Shown here: piece by piece, positions 41,210 through 49,977 of the stretch
Layout of the letters: every line of letters starts with the position of its first letter
Numbering within the stretch: the stretch's first letter is position 1
NCBI RefSeq assembly: GCF_040364665.1
Contig: NZ_BAABWX010000009.1
Coordinates: 1-64,000 of the forward strand
Reading direction: 5' to 3'
Length of the DNA: 64,000 nt
Origin: Cognatishimia sp. WU-CL00825
Lineage (GTDB): Bacteria; Pseudomonadota; Alphaproteobacteria; Rhodobacterales; Rhodobacteraceae
Translations under genes and position numbers: made by a program
The notes under the pieces: generated by a model
The model's database searches: none
What the model was told of the DNA's origin: nothing
What the model saw: only the letters and a program-made list of their open reading frames with translations

Positions 41210-41281
41210 GAGCGCTCGGCGCTTTAATGTCTGGCTAATTGTACAATTTGTACGTTTCAGCCGCTGAATTGTACGATTCGA

Positions 41282-41311
41282 AAGGCCCCTGACGTGTTGG
41301 GGGCCTTTTTA
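41282..41311 (+). terminator. Terminator after the TRAP operon, overlapping the Anbu stop codon
   Basis: Stem AAGGCCCC / GGGGGCCTT around a GACGTGTT-type loop (41282-41308), followed by a run of T. The T run contains the complement of the TAA stop of the convergent Anbu gene, so the two convergent genes share this element. Confidence 0.8.
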
Positions 41312-42049
41312 CTTTTCCGGAAACTCAAATCCGGGCAGCTGACCAAAGGCGTCGCGCAGGGCGTGGCCCCAGCCTTCGGAGATTTTCTGGTAATAGGGAT
41401 CATCGTGTTCGATGCGGAAACTGCGACCAGATGTCAGGCTGTCGGTTTCATAGATTTGCACATCCAGCGGCAAATCAACACCAAGGTTCGCTTTGATGGT
41501 CGAGTCAAACGACACCATCAAAAGTTTGATCGCGTCTTCAAAGCTCATCTTGGGGTCAAAGGCCCGCACCAAAATGGGTTTGCCGTATTTGGTTTCGCCG
41601 ATTTGCAGGAAAGGCGTGTCGGGGCTGGCCTCGATAAAGTTGCCCTCGGGATAGACCAGAAACAGCCGCGGTTCGCCGTCACCCACTTGGCCGCCCACCA
41701 GCACGCTGGCGTTAAAGGCGCTGTCGGCCCGTTGACCGGCCTCGGCATGGGTGCAGATGACCTCTTTCAGAGTATCGCCCACAAGGGTCGCGACCTGAAA
41801 CATCGACTCGGCCTGCAGAATGCCGGGGTTGCGATCACCAGTGGCTTTGCTGCGTTCATCCAGCAGGCTGATCACCGATTGCGTGGTGGCCAGATTGCCC
41901 GCCGTCATCAAGGTGATGGACCGCTCGCCGGGAACGTCCCAGGAAAACATCTTGCGAAAGGTCGAGATGTTATCGACACCCGCGTTGGTGCGGGTATCGG
42001 ACATGAACACAAGGCCTTTGTGCATCATCAGGCCAACGCAATAGGTCAT
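41309..42049 (-). CDS. Anbu: proteasome-like peptidase
   Basis: A 246-residue Ntn-hydrolase, the ancestral beta-type proteasome subunit Anbu. The N-terminus MTYCVGLMMHKGLVFMSDTRTNAG is diagnostic: Thr2 becomes the nucleophile after Met removal, and Asp18 and Lys33 match the proteasome catalytic Asp and Lys. Anbu is longer than HslV and has no ATPase partner gene here. It is the last gene of a leftward cluster with a transglutaminase, an alpha-E protein and a circularly permuted ATP-grasp enzyme, the conserved Anbu neighbourhood. Its biological substrate is unknown. Confidence 0.92.
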   Translation of the reverse strand: MTYCVGLMMHKGLVFMSDTRTNAGVDNISTFRKMFSWDVPGERSITLMTAGNLATTQSVISLLDERSKATGDRNPGILQAESMFQVATLVGDTLKEVICTHAEAGQRADSAFNASVLVGGQVGDGEPRLFLVYPEGNFIEASPDTPFLQIGETKYGKPILVRAFDPKMSFEDAIKLLMVSFDSTIKANLGVDLPLDVQIYETDSLTSGRSFRIEHDDPYYQKISEGWGHALRDAFGQLPGFEFPEK

Positions 42050-42088
42050 GAGCTTTCCAACGTGTCTATTTGCGGGCTTTGAAGCAGG

Positions 42089-42907
42089 CTATTGCTGTAC
42101 TTGCAAGGCAACTTGCAGGTTTTCTATGCCATCCCCCTGACGAATACCCAATATCGGGGCTGAATCGCGGTAATCGCGCCCAGTGGCAATGCGCACATAA
42201 CGTGCGTCGGGCGAGATGCCATTGGAGACATCAAAGCCAACCCAACCCAGATCTTTGGTGTACACCTCGCACCACGCATGGGTGGCGTCTTGGTCGATGC
42301 GGTCATCCATCAGCAAATAGCCTGACACATAGCGCGCTGGAAAGCCCAGCAAACGTGCGGTCGAAATCATGATTTGCGCATGATCTTGACAGACCCCCCG
42401 CCCCGCGGCCAGCGCGTCTTCTGCCTGAGTATCGCTGGTTGTGCTGCCAATTTCATAGACCACGGCCTTGGTGATTTCAGCAGACAGCGCATGTAACAAC
42501 GCGATGTCATCAACGTCTTGTTGATAGGTCTTGATACGGGTCGCCAGTTCAGTGATCGCGGGGCCCGGTTGGGTCAACACACTGTCTTGCATAAAAAGCC
42601 ACAGCGGCGCATAGCCCCGGTGTTTGCCAATCACGCCTGCATTGTCTTCGACTTCCACCACGCCTTCGCATTGAATTTGTACTTCGGTGGCGTTCTGGTC
42701 GACTTTGACAAGTTCGGTGTGGTTCAAGAAATGATCGTCAAAAACCACCTGGCTAGTGCCCCCAGTAAAGGTGCAGTTCCACTCTAACACGGTCTGCCCA
42801 TTGCCGTTGCGCGGTGTCAGGCGCAACTGTTGCAATGCATAATGCACCGGCGTGTCATAGCGATAGGTTGTGACATGGCGGATATTTAATCGTTTTGCAT
42901 CAGCCAT
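42089..42907 (-). CDS. Transglutaminase-like cysteine protease family protein
   Basis: A 272-residue protein. The N-terminal domain begins RLNIRHVTTYRYDTPVHYALQQLRLTPR, standard for this bacterial subgroup. The core has the catalytic triad: Cys in GRGVCQDHAQIMISTARLLGFPARYVSGYL, His in DATHAWCEVY and Asp in VGFDVSNG. Such proteins are predicted peptidases or amidotransferases. The start at 42907 overlaps the alpha-E gene stop by eight bases; a longer frame to 43006 lies within that gene. Confidence 0.9.
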   Translation of the reverse strand: MADAKRLNIRHVTTYRYDTPVHYALQQLRLTPRNGNGQTVLEWNCTFTGGTSQVVFDDHFLNHTELVKVDQNATEVQIQCEGVVEVEDNAGVIGKHRGYAPLWLFMQDSVLTQPGPAITELATRIKTYQQDVDDIALLHALSAEITKAVVYEIGSTTSDTQAEDALAAGRGVCQDHAQIMISTARLLGFPARYVSGYLLMDDRIDQDATHAWCEVYTKDLGWVGFDVSNGISPDARYVRIATGRDYRDSAPILGIRQGDGIENLQVALQVQQ

Positions 42908-43847
42908 AAAACCGGAAATCCTCTTCGATGTGGCCAGCCAGCTTGGCGTTGTCGGCGATAAAACAACTGAGAACCTCGTGCAGCCCCTCTTCGAAAATCG
43001 TGTCAATCGAATGGGTCTTCAGCCGATGACACATGGCTTCGGCCTGAACCTGCGCCTCGGCGCGGTGGTTGTATTCGGTCTCCAGCAGCTCCAGGCTTTC
43101 GCCGATTTCGCGGGCGCAATGGGCCAGTGACCTGGGCATACGCGCATCCAACAGCAGGAAATTGGCGATGGTCAGCGGTGTGCTTTCGCCGCCATAAAGC
43201 CAGCGATAAGAATTGCGGGCTGAAACAGAGCGCAAGATCACTTCCCATTGGGCGTTGTCGATGGTGGTGCCGACATAGGCTGCAGAGGGCAGCAGCACAT
43301 AGTATTTCACATCCAGAATGCGCGCGGTGTTATCGGCGCGTTCGATGAAGGTTCCAAGCCGCGAAAAGGCAAAGATATCATTGCGCAGCATGGTGCCGTG
43401 CAGCGCACCGCGCACCACCGAAGTGCGAAAACGGATCTGTGTCAGCGTGTCATGCAAGCTGCGTTCGCTGACCGGTTTTGACAGCAAATCTTTCAGTAGC
43501 ATCCAACATTCATTGGTGGCTTCCCAGACTTCGGAACTGAGCGCGGTGCGTACAAGCCGCGCGTTGCTGCGGGCGGCATCGATGGCGGCCATCACACTGG
43601 ATGGGTTTTGCTTGTCGCGCAGCATGAAATTGATCACCTGCGCCGGTTCATAGCTGTCGTGTTGGGCTTGATAGGCCTGTGTCATGCCTGCAGTTGCAAT
43701 GATTGATTGCCATTCGTTTGACGACCCATCGGCGGCGCGCGTGAGGGCAATGTGCCAGCCTGCCTCCAGCAAACGTGCAGTGTTTTCGGCGCGTTCAAGA
43801 TAACGGAACATCCAGAACAGACCGCCTGCGGTTTTTCCCAGCATCAT
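42900..43847 (-). CDS. Alpha-E domain protein (DUF403)
   Basis: A 315-residue all-helical protein opening MMLGKTAGGLFWMFRYLERAENTARLLEAG, the conserved start of alpha-E domain proteins. A second repeat-like helix pair FSRLGTFIERADNTARILDVKYYVLLP occurs near residue 165. No catalytic motif is known. The domain is nearly always coded beside circularly permuted ATP-grasp and transglutaminase proteins and is thought to assist a peptide-ligating complex. It is three bases from the ATP-grasp stop. Confidence 0.9.
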   Translation of the reverse strand: MMLGKTAGGLFWMFRYLERAENTARLLEAGWHIALTRAADGSSNEWQSIIATAGMTQAYQAQHDSYEPAQVINFMLRDKQNPSSVMAAIDAARSNARLVRTALSSEVWEATNECWMLLKDLLSKPVSERSLHDTLTQIRFRTSVVRGALHGTMLRNDIFAFSRLGTFIERADNTARILDVKYYVLLPSAAYVGTTIDNAQWEVILRSVSARNSYRWLYGGESTPLTIANFLLLDARMPRSLAHCAREIGESLELLETEYNHRAEAQVQAEAMCHRLKTHSIDTIFEEGLHEVLSCFIADNAKLAGHIEEDFRFYG

Positions 43848-43850
43848 ATC

Positions 43851-45263
43851 TTAATCTCCCAGCACCCAAGTGTCTTTGGTGCCTCCGCCCTGAGACGAGT
43901 TCACCACCAGCGATCCCTTTTTCAACGCAACACGAGTCAGGCCACCGGGGGTCAGATCGATCCGGTTGGGCGACATCAGCGCAAAGGGGCGCAAATCGAC
44001 GTGGCGCGGTGCCAGTCCTGATTTGGCAAGGATGGGCACCGTCGAAAGCGCCAAGGTGGGCTGGGCGATGTAGTTGGATGGGTTCGCGCACAGTTTCTTT
44101 TCAAAGGTTGCCAGTTCTTTTTTGCTGGCAGCCGGGCCAACAAGCATGCCGTATCCACCCGAGCCATGCACCTCTTTGACCACCAGCTCTGCCAGATTAT
44201 CCAGCACATATTTCAGACTGTCAGATTCAGAACAGCGATAGGTTGGCACGTTTTTCAAAATGGCCTGTTCGCCGGTATAGAATTCGACGATGTCCGGCAT
44301 GTAAGAATACAGAGCTTTGTCATCCGCAATGCCAGTGCCGGGGGCATTGGCGATAGTGATATTGCCCGCACGATACACATCCATGATGCCCGGCACGCCC
44401 AGCATTGAATTTGGATTGAATGTAAGCGGATCAAGAAAGTCATCATCGACACGGCGATACAGCACATCAATCGATTGATAGCCCTGGGTGGTGCGCATGG
44501 CAACGCGGCCGTCTTCGACGCGCAAATCATTGCTTTCCACCAGCTCTACGCCCATTTGATCCGCCAAAAACGCATGTTCGAAATAGGCCGAATTGTGGAT
44601 ACCGGGCGTTAGCACCGCGACAATAGGTTTGGCATTTGGCGAGTCAGCCGGGGCGCAATCTGCCAGCGAGCGGCGCAACAGTGAAGGATAGGCGCTGACC
44701 GGCCGGACCTTTAGTTTGGTGAACAGTTCCGGGAACATATGCTGCATGGTTTCGCGGTTTTCCAGCATATAGCTGACACCGGACGGTGTGCGGGCATTGT
44801 CTTCGAGCACAAAGAATTCGTTTTCTCCGGTGCGCACCAGATCGGTGCCCACAATATGGGTATAGACGCCGCCCGGAGGCTTTACGCCAATCATTTCAGG
44901 CAGAAAGGCTTCGTTGCCGGCGATCAACTCGCGGGGAATACGGCCTGCGCGCAGGATTTCTTGGCGGTGATAGATATCGTGTAAAAAGGCATTGATGGCG
45001 CGTACGCGCTGTTCGATGCCCCGTTCCAACGTGCGCCATTCCTTGGCAGCGATGATCCTTGGGACAATGTCAAAGGGTATCAGACGTTCGTCTGCCTCCT
45101 CTTGTCCGTACACGTTAAAAGTAATGCCGATACGACGAAAAAAGGTCTCTGCTTCTTGGGATTTGCGCTTAAGCGCTTTTATGTCCTCTTGGCGGAACCA
45201 GTCGTAATAGGCTTCGTAAGGTTGCCGGGGCTGATCCGCGCCCGCCAACATCTCATCAAACAT
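43851..45263 (-). CDS. Circularly permuted ATP-grasp protein (DUF404/DUF407 family)
   Basis: A 470-residue circularly permuted ATP-grasp enzyme. Landmarks: FDEMLAGADQPRQPYEAYYDWF at the N-terminus, GITFNVYGQEEADERLIPFDIVPRII, GTDLVRTGENEFFVLEDNARTPSGVSYMLENRE (metal-ATP site) and LVVKEVHGSGGYGMLVGP. These enzymes are predicted to form amide or peptide bonds. The ATG at 45263 has a GGGGAA site; an ATG six codons upstream (45281) is possible. First gene of the cluster, divergent from an AsnC regulator. Confidence 0.9.
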   Translation of the reverse strand: MFDEMLAGADQPRQPYEAYYDWFRQEDIKALKRKSQEAETFFRRIGITFNVYGQEEADERLIPFDIVPRIIAAKEWRTLERGIEQRVRAINAFLHDIYHRQEILRAGRIPRELIAGNEAFLPEMIGVKPPGGVYTHIVGTDLVRTGENEFFVLEDNARTPSGVSYMLENRETMQHMFPELFTKLKVRPVSAYPSLLRRSLADCAPADSPNAKPIVAVLTPGIHNSAYFEHAFLADQMGVELVESNDLRVEDGRVAMRTTQGYQSIDVLYRRVDDDFLDPLTFNPNSMLGVPGIMDVYRAGNITIANAPGTGIADDKALYSYMPDIVEFYTGEQAILKNVPTYRCSESDSLKYVLDNLAELVVKEVHGSGGYGMLVGPAASKKELATFEKKLCANPSNYIAQPTLALSTVPILAKSGLAPRHVDLRPFALMSPNRIDLTPGGLTRVALKKGSLVVNSSQGGGTKDTWVLGD

Positions 45264-45571
45264 TTTTTTGTTCCCCGTCATGTCAAAACGGTGACACAGA
45301 GAATTCCGAGCGCAACCAATTGCCCGGTTTTTGAGACAAATTTGCGTGAAATATTTGGAAATAATAAAGGTCAATGGCGAAACTTTCCGAAACCTGCCTA
45401 AAAAATAGGCAGATAATCGAGTTTTCTGCGATGCAGCGTGCCGAGTCGCAAAACCAAGGCCAGCCTAAAATTGAAATTGATTCCCCCGTGCTGCTTTCAG
45501 GTCACATATACAGAGGGTTTTTTTGGCCTCGCAAAGAGGCTAGACAAAAGGACCCATGCAAGGATTGCTTT
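45264..45571. other. Divergent intergenic region between the ATP-grasp cluster and asnC-like gene
   Basis: About 310 bases with no supported gene. An in-frame extension of the AsnC gene back to 45374 has no ribosome site and non-family residues, so it is treated as leader. A small stem GCCTC-GCAAA-GAGGC lies near 45525-45540. Confidence 0.5.
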
Positions 45572-46003
45572 GTGAAAGACAGTTTAGATCGAAAAATCAT
45601 CGCCGTTTTGCAAGCCAATGCACGGCAATCTACTTCAAAAATCGCAGAGACATTGGGGGTTGCGCGCACCACCGTGCACGAGCGCATCGCGCGGATGGAG
45701 GACCGGGGCGAGATCACCGGTTATACGGTTGTGCTTGGGCACCCGAATGATGCGCCAATGGTGCAGGTGATTGTCTCTCTGTCGGTGCAACAACCGGAAA
45801 CCAAACGCATTATCACCCGATTGAAATCTTATCCCGAGATTAAGCTTTGCCTGTCGGTCAATGGTGAATTTGACCTGCTGTTGTCCGCCGAGGCACCGCG
45901 CATCGAAGATTTGGACATTATGGTGGATGAAATCGGGGCCATTCCCGGTGTCAACCGCACCAAAACATCCGTTGTCTTTGGACGTCGGATCGATCGCACC
46001 TAA
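45572..46003 (+). CDS. Lrp/AsnC-family transcriptional regulator
   Basis: A 143-residue Lrp-type regulator starting at GTG with AAGGA upstream. HTH: LDRKIIAVLQANARQSTSKIAETLGVARTTVHERIARMEDRGEITGYTVVLG; RAM domain: VQVIVSLSVQQPETKRIITRLKSYPEIKLCLSVNGEFDLLLSAEA. It lies just upstream of the lysine-dehydrogenase-like gene and is divergent from the Anbu cluster, so it could regulate either. TGACGAA repeats directly after its stop are a likely operator for the next gene. Confidence 0.88.
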   Translation: MKDSLDRKIIAVLQANARQSTSKIAETLGVARTTVHERIARMEDRGEITGYTVVLGHPNDAPMVQVIVSLSVQQPETKRIITRLKSYPEIKLCLSVNGEFDLLLSAEAPRIEDLDIMVDEIGAIPGVNRTKTSVVFGRRIDRT

Positions 46004-46004
46004 C

Positions 46005-46058
46005 AAAGTGACGAAAACCTCATCAATATGACGAAATTACCAGTCAATTCGTCACTTT
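46005..46058. promoter_or_regulatory. Inverted and direct TGACGAA repeats, candidate Lrp-type operator
   Basis: AAAGTGACGAA (46005-46015) and TTCGTCACTTT (46048-46058) are perfect inverted copies, and a third TGACGAA lies between them at 46029-46035. Centres are about 20-22 bases apart, two helical turns, which suits wrapping by an Lrp octamer. The array is 60 bases upstream of the dehydrogenase ATG. Confidence 0.65.
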
Positions 46059-46117
46059 GCTCTCTTTCAGATGAACAGCTGCCTCTGCATTCTTGTTAAA
46101 AAACAATGGAGTGCATT

Positions 46118-47224
46118 ATGCAGTGGAACATTTGCATTATTGGTGCGGGCAAAATCGGTCAGATGATCGCGAGCCTCTTGCGGCAATCGCCAAATTATTC
46201 GGTCACCATCGCGGATCATGATCTAGGCGCCCTTGGCAAAATGCGCGCCAAAGGCTTGGCAACCGCGCAAATCGATGCGGATGATAAAACGGCGCTGACC
46301 AAAACGCTGACCGGGTTTAACGCGGTGATTTCCGCCGCCCCGTTCTTTCTGACACCAAAAATTGCCGCTGCGGCCAAAGCGGCGGGCGCGCATTATTTTG
46401 ATCTGACAGAAGATGTGGCTGCGACGAATGTGGTGCGGGATCTGGCGACCAACAGCAAAACGGCCTTTATGCCGCAATGTGGCCTGGCACCTGGGTTTGT
46501 TGGCATTGCGGGCGCTGCATTGGCCGATAAGTTTGACAGTTTGGACAGTCTGCATATGCGCGTGGGCGCCTTGCCGCTGTTTCCCACCAATGCGCTGAAA
46601 TACAACCTAACTTGGTCCACTGATGGGTTGATCAACGAGTATTGTAATCCGTGTGACGCAATTGTCGGGGGAAAATTGACCCAAACGGCGCCCTTGGAAG
46701 ATTACGAGATTCTGGGGCACGACGGGGTGGAATATGAATGCTTTAACACATCCGGCGGGTTGGGCACTTTGCCCGAAACGCTGGAAGGCAAGGCCCAAGC
46801 GGTGTCGTATCGGTCGATCCGCTATCCTGGCCATCGTGATATCTTAAAGCTTTTGCTGCATGATCTGGGCCTGGAACGGCGCCGGGATCTGCTGAAGGAA
46901 ATCTTTGAATCCGCCCTGCCCCGCACCGATCAGGATGTGGTGCTGGTCTATTGCACGGCCAAAGGCATGAAAGACGGCAGTCTGCGCGAAGAAAGTTACA
47001 TCAACAAATCGTTTTCGCGCGAAATCGATGGTCGGATCTGGAGCGCGATCCAGGTCACCACCGCTGCGGGAGTTTTGGGTGTGGTTGACCTGATGCGGCA
47101 AGGGAAATTGCCAACCGCGGGGTTTGTGCGCCAAGAGCAGGTGGATCTAGAGGCGTTCTTGAACACCGAATTTGGCCGCCTGTATCAAGACGGCAATGTC
47201 AGGGCCCATCATCAGGCAGCTTGA
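46118..47224 (+). CDS. L-lysine 6-dehydrogenase-like protein (saccharopine dehydrogenase family)
   Basis: A 368-residue oxidoreductase. The N-terminal Rossmann motif is [51 protein letters not shown] and [24 protein letters not shown] are typical of bacterial lysine 6-dehydrogenases, which form allysine from lysine with NAD. A saccharopine-type role or another amino acid substrate remains possible. The ATG at 46118 follows GGAG; one 12 bases upstream is less well placed. The Lrp/AsnC neighbour fits amino-acid control. Confidence 0.72.
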
Positions 47225-47630: not shown

Positions 47631-49208
47631 TTAAGCCGCCTGAGCCTTGCCATCAACATAGCTGGCAATCGCAGATTTTTGCGCGTCATTGAGGCGCAGA
47701 CCAAGTTTGGTGCGTCGCCATAGAAAATCATCGGCATCGCGCACCCATTCGTTTTGCATGGCCCAATTCAGTTCGGCCTCGGTGATGCCCGCGCCAAAGG
47801 ATTGCCCCAGATCCTCTGCGGATGTGGCCGCACCCAGAACCGCAAATGTATCTGTGCCATAGATGCGCACCAAACGCTGCGCCTGCCCCGGTTCTAGAAA
47901 GCCGTATTTGGCTGCGACCCGCGCGATCAGATCCGCGACGCCCTCGACCGGGAAGTCCCCGCCTGGCATCGGCACGCCTGCGGTCCATTTTCCGGGCAGG
48001 TTGGGGAAGAATTTGGCGATTTCGTCCAGCGCGCTTTCCGCAAGCCGGCGATAGGTGGTGATTTTGCCGCCAAACACATTCAAGATTGGTGCGCCGCCAT
48101 CGGTATTGACCCGCAGCACATAATCGCGCGTGGCCGCCGTGGCGCTGGAGGCACCGTCATTGTACAGCGGGCGCACGCCGGAATAGGTCCAAACCACATC
48201 GTCTTGGCTGAGTTGCTGGTTGAAATAGCCATTGGCGAATTTCAGCAGGTAATCACGCTCATCATCCGTGCACACCGGTTTGACATTGGCATCCGTGTGA
48301 TCGGCATCGGTTGTGCCGATCAGGGTGTAATCTTGTTCATAGGGGATCGAAAAAATAATGCGCCCGTCTTCGCCCTGGAAGAAATAGCATTTGTCATGGT
48401 CATACAGTCGTTTGGTCACAATATGGCTGCCACGCACCAAACGCACGCCCTCTTGCGAGTTGATGCCTGCCACGCCGCTGATCACATCCATCACCCAGGG
48501 ACCGCCCGCGTTAATCAACATGCGCGCCTTGAATTCTTTGACTGCCCCTGTTTCGGTGTCAGCGGTCTGGATTACCCACAGGTCGCCCTCGCGCCGCGCC
48601 TGGGTCACTTTGGTGCGCGTCATGATTTTCGCGCCACGGCTTTCGGCATCGCGGGCGTTCAAAACCACCAAACGGCTGTCTTGCACCCAACAATCTGAAT
48701 ATTCATAGGCCTTGGCAAAACGATCATCTATTGGCGCGCCTTCGGGACCAGAAGATAGATCAACGGTAGAGGTGCCCGGCAGAATTTTGCGCCCGCCGAG
48801 GTGGTCATACATAAACAGCCCCAAGCGGATCAGCCATGCGGGGCGTCGGCCCTTCATCCAGGGCATAAACAGGGTCAAAAGCTTGGAAGTCGGCGTTTCA
48901 GCGTCAAACCGCATGTCTTTGTGATAGGGCAGCACAAAGCGCATGGGCCAACTGATGTGGGGCATGGCGCGCAGCAGGGTTTCGCGTTCGACCAAGGCTT
49001 CGCGCACCAGACGGAATTCAAAGAATTCCAGATATCGAAGACCACCATGGAACAGTTTGGTGCTGGCCGAGGATGTGGCAGACGCCAGATCGTTCATTTC
49101 CGCCAAAGCCACGGTCAGGCCGCGGCCTGCCGCGTCGCGGGCGATGCCGCAGCCATTGATGCCGCCGCCGATGACAAAGAGATCAAGAGTGTCGGAGGTG
49201 TCAGACAT
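47631..49208 (-). CDS. glpD: Glycerol-3-phosphate dehydrogenase, FAD-dependent
   Basis: A 525-residue membrane-associated flavoenzyme that oxidises sn-glycerol 3-phosphate to DHAP with electrons to quinone. FAD motif LFVIGGGINGCGIARDAAGRGLTVALAE is followed by LASATSSASTKLFHGGLRYLE. Later landmarks: LINAGGPWVMDV, YTLIGTTDADH and VFGGKITTYRRLAESALDE, then the C-terminal GlpD helical domain. The start at 49208 overlaps glpR by eight bases; a longer frame to 49523 lies inside glpR. No glpF, glpK or glycerol-phosphate transporter is in the window. Confidence 0.93.
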   Translation of the reverse strand: MSDTSDTLDLFVIGGGINGCGIARDAAGRGLTVALAEMNDLASATSSASTKLFHGGLRYLEFFEFRLVREALVERETLLRAMPHISWPMRFVLPYHKDMRFDAETPTSKLLTLFMPWMKGRRPAWLIRLGLFMYDHLGGRKILPGTSTVDLSSGPEGAPIDDRFAKAYEYSDCWVQDSRLVVLNARDAESRGAKIMTRTKVTQARREGDLWVIQTADTETGAVKEFKARMLINAGGPWVMDVISGVAGINSQEGVRLVRGSHIVTKRLYDHDKCYFFQGEDGRIIFSIPYEQDYTLIGTTDADHTDANVKPVCTDDERDYLLKFANGYFNQQLSQDDVVWTYSGVRPLYNDGASSATAATRDYVLRVNTDGGAPILNVFGGKITTYRRLAESALDEIAKFFPNLPGKWTAGVPMPGGDFPVEGVADLIARVAAKYGFLEPGQAQRLVRIYGTDTFAVLGAATSAEDLGQSFGAGITEAELNWAMQNEWVRDADDFLWRRTKLGLRLNDAQKSAIASYVDGKAQAA

Positions 49209-49977
49209 TGTTGTCTTCCAAATTGATAAGTTTCGTTCCACCCGCCTGCGCCGCTTGGACAAAGGGCAGCGGCGGGCGTTTGTCGGTGATGACATAGTCA
49301 AGGTCAGCCACATCACAGATGCGCACTGGCGCATTGCGATCAAACTTGCTGACATCCGCCACCAGAATTTTTGTACGGGCATTGCGCAGAATGGCGCGAG
49401 CCACAGCAACTTCGCGTTCGTCAAAATCCAGCACAGCACCGTCTTCGTCCAAAGACGAGGTGCCGATGATCGCGAAATCTGCTTTGTAGCGTTGAATGAA
49501 TTCCACCGCTTCAGCGCCCACAACCGCCCCGTCGCTTTGACGCACAGAGCCGCCCGCTATCACCAAAGAGTTCAAACGCGCGCCGCGCAGAATGTGAATA
49601 ACGTTGATATTATTGGTGATCACCCGCAGGTCTTCGTGGGTGGCCAGCGCCGCAGCCACCAGTTCCGTAGTGGTGCCGATGTTGAGTAAAATCGAGCTGC
49701 CATTGGGGATAAGGCTGGCGGTGCGCTTGGCAATGGATTCTTTTTCAGCAGATTGGCGGAGGCGGCGTTCTTCGTACCCAAAGGAGGAAGCTGATACGAG
49801 ATTGCGCGCGCCCCCATGCGTGCGCGTGGCCAAGCCCCGCTCGCATAGTTCTGTCAAATCGCGTCGCACGGTTTGCGTGGTCACAGCAAAGCGCACCGCG
49901 AGGTCGTCGACTTCGACGCGCCCTTGATCACGCAAAAGGCCCAAAATATCTTCTTGGCGTTGATTTAACGGCATCAC
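49201..49977 (-). CDS. glpR: DeoR-family regulator of glycerol-3-phosphate metabolism
   Basis: A 258-residue DeoR repressor. HTH: RQEDILGLLRDQGRVEVDDLAVRFAVTTQTVRRDLTELCERGLATRTHGGARNL, with the family VRRD motif. The sugar-phosphate domain has ILLNIGTTTELVAAAL and ILVADVSKFDRNAPVRI. Its stop overlaps glpD, so both are on one transcript and it probably autoregulates; glycerol 3-phosphate is the expected inducer by analogy with GlpR. Confidence 0.88.
   Translation of the reverse strand: MMPLNQRQEDILGLLRDQGRVEVDDLAVRFAVTTQTVRRDLTELCERGLATRTHGGARNLVSASSFGYEERRLRQSAEKESIAKRTASLIPNGSSILLNIGTTTELVAAALATHEDLRVITNNINVIHILRGARLNSLVIAGGSVRQSDGAVVGAEAVEFIQRYKADFAIIGTSSLDEDGAVLDFDEREVAVARAILRNARTKILVADVSKFDRNAPVRICDVADLDYVITDKRPPLPFVQAAQAGGTKLINLEDNNV

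Follow-up and report, generated by a model that had tools for sequence, protein, structure and literature searches.

The four-gene Anbu operon analyzed here lies in a 64,000-nucleotide (nt) stretch of the Cognatishimia sp. WU-CL00825 genome (contig NZ_BAABWX010000009.1, positions 1 to 64,000; below, the window), where it spans positions 41309-45263. The four genes are intact, read leftward (minus strand), and are packed like an operon, with a gap of 3 nt, an overlap of 8 nt, and a gap of 39 nt (Table 1). A first-pass annotation of this DNA had placed them there and named them as a circularly permuted ATP-grasp ligase, an alpha-E protein, a transglutaminase-like protein, and Anbu, a proteasome-like N-terminal nucleophile (Ntn) hydrolase; location, packing, and identities were all borne out, the last by Pfam and PDB matches. 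The ATP-grasp protein matched PF14403 (2e-167, profile positions 1-374 of 374) and PF04174 (2.9e-149, 1-332 of 332) and aligned over residues 2-470 with the solved chain 3n6x_A (phmmer, 1.4e-194). The alpha-E protein matched PF04168 (4.5e-89; 299.5 bits against a cut-off of 20.8), and the transglutaminase-like protein combines Bact_transglu_N (PF08379, 3.5e-21) with Transglut_core (PF01841, 9.4e-22), its predicted model matching the fold of 3isr. Anbu matched PF00227 (1.6e-8), and its best PDB relatives by phmmer were designed or solved Anbu chains, namely, 5loy (5.1e-86), 5nyw (1.4e-71), 5nyj, 5nyf, and 5lox, all five between 5e-86 and 1e-67, with a proteasome beta subunit next at 0.0073. By sequence similarity, the last protein is thus Anbu proper, nearer to the Anbu chains than to HslV or the proteasome. 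The genome holds a single ATP-grasp protein of this kind and a single alpha-E protein over the cut-offs. A proteasome-family gene distinct from Anbu lies on a different contig (C5:58325) and is probably HslV.

Table 1. Coordinates of the operon and associated features in the window (aa, amino acids)
Feature	Position	Strand	Remarks
ATP-grasp ligase gene, circularly permuted	43851..45263	-	470 aa
alpha-E gene	42900..43847	-	315 aa
alpha-E first repeat	43440..43802	-	residues 16-136; first ER motif E18-R19
alpha-E second repeat	42966..43349	-	residues 167-294; second ER motif E169-R170
Transglutaminase-like gene	42089..42907	-	272 aa; 8 nt shared with alpha-E; triad C173-H210-D226
Anbu gene, proteasome-like Ntn hydrolase	41309..42049	-	246 aa; T2, D18, K33
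Terminator-like hairpin, 13 pairs	41280..41309	. (listed on + strand)	between Anbu stop and convergent dctM gene
NtrC-type operator (candidate), TGCCTA-N5-TAGGCA	45395..45411	.	perfect palindrome, extends to 45394-45412

The locus was compared with 80 related loci, the best 80 of 590 confirmed ones when ranked by ATP-grasp similarity. The order ATP-grasp, alpha-E, transglutaminase was kept in all 80, with Anbu next in 73, so the four-gene arrangement is not due to chance. The seven loci without Anbu were all of Rhizobium/Agrobacterium type (one, L073, stops short of the expected Anbu place), and a search for Anbu in those seven genomes gave no match, with one positive control genome that did match. 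The closest named alpha-E protein came from Cognatishimia, followed by other Rhodobacteraceae. In alignments that included the window, Anbu T2, D18, and K33 were near-invariant (at least 98.5% in 73 sequences) and fit the family rule (Thr after the initiator Met, Asp17, and Lys32/33 in mature numbering), and transglutaminase C173, H210, and D226 were near-invariant in 80 sequences. The active sites are therefore intact, as the first-pass annotation had stated. It had also named loss of these residues, or failure of the genes to co-occur in relatives, as grounds for dropping its view; no such loss appeared in the alignments, and the genes do co-occur, both in the 80 loci and in the 299 genomes described below. 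No fifth gene was seen to be conserved beside the operon in the 80 loci, and no small open reading frame or peptide gene conserved across genera was found in the gaps or flanks examined, in agreement with the earlier remark that a substrate peptide gene is missing nearby.

One set of 299 genomes from the phylum (Pseudomonadota) was used to establish the distribution of each family, with counts that are not ancestry-corrected. Alpha-E was present in 156 genomes and ATP-grasp in the identical 156, with zero discordant cases, and within this sample the two have the look of an obligate pair. Of the 101 genomes with Anbu, 100 also had alpha-E, and 56 genomes had alpha-E without Anbu. In the sole exception (G102), Anbu adjoins a short-chain dehydrogenase gene and there is no ATP-grasp match. 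Urease served as a control at E < 1e-40, which kept 101 genomes and dropped 16 weaker ones of 117 (106 pass the family cut-off); alpha-E was present in 81 of them, giving 20 exceptions for urease versus 1 for Anbu (p = 8e-6). An association with alpha-E holds for urease too (p 2.6e-12; phi 0.40, versus 0.67 for Anbu), which shows the extent of association to be had from shared ancestry or genome size alone. In 63 of 99 genomes, Anbu shared its strand with a nearby alpha-E; it lay otherwise within 10 kb in 23, and far away or on another contig in 13, an upper bound, as the table uses listed alpha-E places only and one of the 100 genomes is absent from it. Since Anbu co-occurs with alpha-E even in these 13, its dependence is probably not only a matter of operon linkage. 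Taken together, Anbu looks like a dependent and dispensable hydrolase, and the ligase pair does not appear to need it.

This nesting bears on the idea that Anbu is a bulk peptidase supplying amino acids under nitrogen starvation, with the other three genes merely co-regulated. Such a role would suit the nitrogen-starvation control described below and a proteasome-like fold with an intact active site. The Ntn fold and the Thr-Asp-Lys set are common to Anbu, HslV, and the 20S proteasome beta subunit, but the four genes of the Anbu operon include no unfoldase. Against a bulk peptidase, no AAA+ partner is associated with Anbu (PMC5666114, PMC6376114). Three proteasome substrates were all left uncut by the Anbu enzymes of Yersinia bercovieri, Hyphomicrobium, and P. 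aeruginosa (PMC6376114), and a mere co-regulated passenger is hard to square with a ligase pair that accompanies Anbu in 100 of 101 genomes when the equally frequent urease goes without it in 20. We therefore regard general proteolysis as improbable.

The alpha-E protein is, from its sequence, an internal duplication. Local alignment of its halves scored 95, against a mean of 28 (standard deviation 5, maximum 54) for 300 shuffles, and the ER motif of each half was near-invariant in 81 sequences. Its AlphaFold2 model consists of helices only (predicted local distance difference test score 88.9, predicted template modeling score 0.88). No relative of known structure was found by sequence (best E 0.019), and comparison of the model with solved folds gave no convincing match. 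Alpha-E is a probable ligase subunit because of its exact co-occurrence with ATP-grasp and because the two are naturally fused in a sister operon, the DUF2126 type (observed in L138). That operon shares the ATP-grasp, alpha-E, and transglutaminase families with the one in the window but has large fused proteins, whereas the window genome has one ATP-grasp and one alpha-E. It is quite likely that ATP-grasp and alpha-E act as one ligase. In L138 (genome G034), an Anbu operon stands beside the DUF2126 and fused ATP-grasp-alpha-E set, with Anbu adjoining the DUF2126 gene.

Upstream of the operon, 131 bp 5' of the ATP-grasp start codon, the palindrome TGCCTAAAAAATAGGCA is the longest inverted repeat. 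An unguided count over the 200 nt in front of the ATP-grasp gene, taken from the window plus the 80 loci, gave TGCCTAA as the top enriched k-mer (15 versus 1.5 expected). For comparison, we used the upstream regions of glnB/glnK (the PII set), chosen as classical nitrogen-control targets, of which 25 were left after dropping 5 of 30 loci with an unrecognized start. An unguided dyad search among 4096 half-sites and 5 gaps returned TGCCTA with a gap of 5 as the best dyad, present in 18 of these 25 (0.0 in three shuffle rounds). The same search in the 80 operon upstreams, window left out, found this dyad in 17 (shuffles 0.0), level with CTGCCC at a gap of 7, another register of the same palindrome (20 of 80; shuffles 0.3). 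The box thus stands ahead of the operon in further Alphaproteobacteria as well. A matrix trained on PII sites, which had been picked by the operon-derived consensus, was applied to the 81 operon upstreams and to 339 controls; the 98th percentile of the controls was exceeded by 49 of the former and 7 of the latter, with the window highest. For some divergent pairs, both sides are among the controls, e.g., in L033, whose uvrC upstream was the strongest-scoring control. The published Paracoccus denitrificans NtrC site, YGCMNNNNTTNNTRGCA, was matched with at most one mismatch in 21 of 81 operon upstreams versus 8 of 339 controls (p 1.2e-10). The window is among the 21, its box differing at one of 11 specified positions.

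In the window genome, the only zero-mismatch copy of TGCCTA-N5-TAGGCA is the one before the operon, and sites that have an AT-rich core and no more than one mismatch precede glnB-glnA, uvrC, a MatE gene, and the operon itself (perfect). Palindrome searches of 24 related genomes gave copies before uvrC, before a PII gene, before the operon, and between ispDF and dusB-ntrB-ntrC (the last in two same-genus genomes), along with further copies within genes or beside unrelated genes. No earlier report of such a box upstream of this operon turned up in searches of one open-access library of papers, RegPrecise tables and supplements being outside the search.

No convincing sigma-54 -24/-12 element was detected upstream of the operon: the best in the window reached 17.5 of 22.5, with 0.14 of 50 shuffles as good, and 7 of 81 upstreams reached ≤0.02, at scattered positions. 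This fits an NtrC that lacks GAFTGA, the sigma-54 contact motif, as is the case in two same-genus genomes and likewise in Caulobacter (PMC10274813). On these grounds, the operon is very probably a member of this lineage's NtrC regulon and would be switched on under nitrogen starvation.

Published data point in the same direction. In P. denitrificans, reporter activity on nitrate was 14500 with the intact nasT NtrC site and 220 once that site was mutated (PMC5424462). In Pseudomonas putida, PP_2685-PP_2688 have been assigned to NtrB/NtrC (PMC7801951, PMC3325844). Under nitrogen limitation, PP_2686-2688 rose 11-15 fold in the first strain column of one study (PMC7801951), and PP2685, PP2686, and PP2687 rose 11.1-, 6.6-, and 7.1-fold in the other (PMC3325844). 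The papers name proteasome-like and transglutaminase members, and the remaining two would be alpha-E and ATP-grasp. The related cluster I35_5080-83 of Burkholderia cenocepacia changed by log2 -8.2, -9.4, -9.4, and -6.0 in an ntrC mutant (PMC5491218), and we take I35_5083 to be of the DUF2126 type. In Bradyrhizobium, an RpoN site has been predicted upstream of a CP_ATPgrasp gene (PMC13207237), and an association of these domain families with urea-metabolism domains has been described in marine metagenomes (PMC3597751). The first-pass annotation had missed both the upstream palindrome and this nitrogen link, which has been published for Pseudomonas putida and, in the case of a related cluster, for Burkholderia.

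The palindrome might instead serve a regulator other than NtrC, such as NtrX or the divergent Lrp/AsnC-type protein encoded at 45455-46003. In the window and in L184, the box does separate the operon from the Lrp-type gene, the NtrC cluster encodes a second NtrC-like regulator, probably NtrX, and a box before uvrC is unexpected for NtrC. However, no close homologue of the Lrp-type gene turned up in the flanks of the 80 loci, only two distant hits (26%), although the box is common there, and the box precedes the nitrogen-control genes glnB/glnK and dusB-ntrBC and matches the published NtrC site. A non-NtrC regulator is thus an unlikely owner of the site.

As a separate observation, uvrC is preceded by the palindrome in seven related genomes (L176, L177, L179, L180, L183, L186, and L187; uvrC identified by Pfam in L180 and by eye in the other six). 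The uvrC upstream box also occurs in the window genome with one mismatch (C4:87388, L229), and a similar one is present in L033, an unexpected possible tie between nitrogen control and excision repair. A palindrome of the window genome, TGCCCAATTATTGGGCA at C4:131461 (L153/L192), lies between thiolase and short-chain reductase genes (Pfam), which we take to be, perhaps, the polyhydroxybutyrate pair phaA-phaB.

How the four proteins might work together can be outlined as follows, and we give about even chances to the view that they form a nitrogen-starvation module that makes and hydrolyzes an amide-linked compound. Upon ammonium depletion, phosphorylated NtrC would bind the palindrome and, though devoid of the sigma-54 contact motif, would activate the four genes, presumably as one transcript. 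The ATP-grasp enzyme would activate a carboxylate with ATP and couple it to an amine, with alpha-E as its obligatory partner, perhaps a substrate-holding subunit. The transglutaminase-like cysteine enzyme and Anbu may then open or exchange amide bonds of the ligase product, whose amide nitrogen would thereby be stored or masked and recovered later. That Anbu acts on the product of the ligase pair seems to us a little better than an even bet.

The product itself we would, by a slight preference, place among small peptide- or amine-amides rather than protein tags. We favor a small molecule because no conserved tag gene was found and because of the logic of glutathionylspermidine synthetase/amidase, in which an ATP-grasp ligase is combined with a papain-fold amidase. 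That enzyme is a candidate for a system that works alike, and 3n6x bears its name as a putative label; neither the GSP_synth nor the CHAP domain was among the Pfam hits of the operon up to 0.001.

Reversible protein tagging is the main competitor to a small amide. Here ATP-grasp and alpha-E would add a peptide or amino acids to proteins, and Anbu and the transglutaminase-like enzyme would trim or remove them (Iyer et al. 2009, as cited in PMC5666114 and PMC6376114). Two predicted bond formers or exchangers next to a proteasome-like hydrolase, and an Anbu nested in ligase-bearing genomes, are what this would lead one to expect. It is at odds with the lack of a conserved tag or carrier gene beside the operon in the 80 loci and with Y. 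bercovieri Anbu pull-downs, which recovered no specific partner among the operon proteins (PMC6376114). A tag built from free amino acids, however, would not have to be encoded, which tempers the argument from the missing tag gene; on balance, we consider tagging rather unlikely. The make-and-break idea voiced in the first-pass annotation is supported as a fair hypothesis.

Several points count against a nitrogen-controlled amide module. Box control is not universal, as 32 of the 81 operon upstreams fall under the matrix threshold. The matrix is partly circular through its training sites, which does not apply to the unguided dyad search, and the members of the PII set are related to one another. 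In the window genome, sites with at most one mismatch number 7, versus 5 for a reversed control pattern; the count alone is no evidence, and the weight is carried by the positions and the AT-rich core. In this species, the site could belong to NtrX or to the Lrp-type protein encoded divergently. The rise of P. putida Anbu was only 1.12-fold in one RNA-seq set (first strain column; PMC7801951), and the co-occurrence figures ignore shared ancestry. The failed cleavage of proteasome substrates and the empty pull-downs mentioned above belong here too.

The first-pass annotation had called the locus the best candidate in the window for an undescribed system. This is not borne out: an operon of these four genes, ordered alike, is already in print (PMC5666114, PMC6376114, citing Valas & Bourne 2008 and Iyer et al. 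2009). The four families and their conserved order are shared with Y. bercovieri and other Anbu operons (PMC5666114, PMC6376114); the window operon differs in species and in being preceded by an NtrC-type palindrome but by no convincing sigma-54 element. For the Y. bercovieri ATP-grasp, release of phosphate from ATP has been reported (PMC6376114). The system is known and this member is ordinary, and what is added here is the operator, the genome-level nesting, and the alpha-E duplication, of which the latter two were not found in the passages of PMC5666114 and PMC6376114 consulted.

Anbu has been presented as a possible proteasome ancestor (PMC5666114, PMC6376114). If the amide module is real, a proteasome-fold enzyme would serve small-molecule or tag metabolism instead of bulk proteolysis. 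The conserved NtrC-type box makes ammonium starvation the condition to examine, and the nested occurrence makes the product of ATP-grasp and alpha-E, not bulk protein, the target to seek. The box would also extend the nitrogen link from Pseudomonas (and the related cluster in Burkholderia) to Alphaproteobacteria with an NtrC that is devoid of the sigma-54 contact motif. Only tentatively do we generalize to a widespread nitrogen-starvation response of Pseudomonadota, in which an obligate ATP-grasp/alpha-E ligase might build a new amide-linked nitrogen compound or tag, with Anbu as its dedicated optional hydrolase, under a switch shared with glnB and ntrBC.

Around the operon, the hairpin that follows Anbu is likely the 3' end of the operon; terminator-like hairpins in the whole window number 4, versus 5.9 expected from shuffles, a count not above background. 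On the other side (45455-47224), the operon has its intergenic region in common with the divergent Lrp/AsnC-type regulator gene and a saccharopine-dehydrogenase-like gene, and these neighbors recur in the same-genus genome L184 and not in the 80 loci. Three Anbu-less rhizobial loci encode, near the operon, a protein of ~155-168 residues with GQS.FQSV near its start (L067:13314-13820, L077:13263-13760, and L082:15424-15891); its end is J-domain-like by eye, and the L067 and L082 copies have no Pfam match. A glpD-like gene (47631-49523 in the window) occurs in the operon flanks of 14 of 81 loci in three arrangements, the others being L005, L039, L055, L057, L058, L062-L065, L068, L069, L071, and L081, and in L039 it stands immediately 3' of Anbu.

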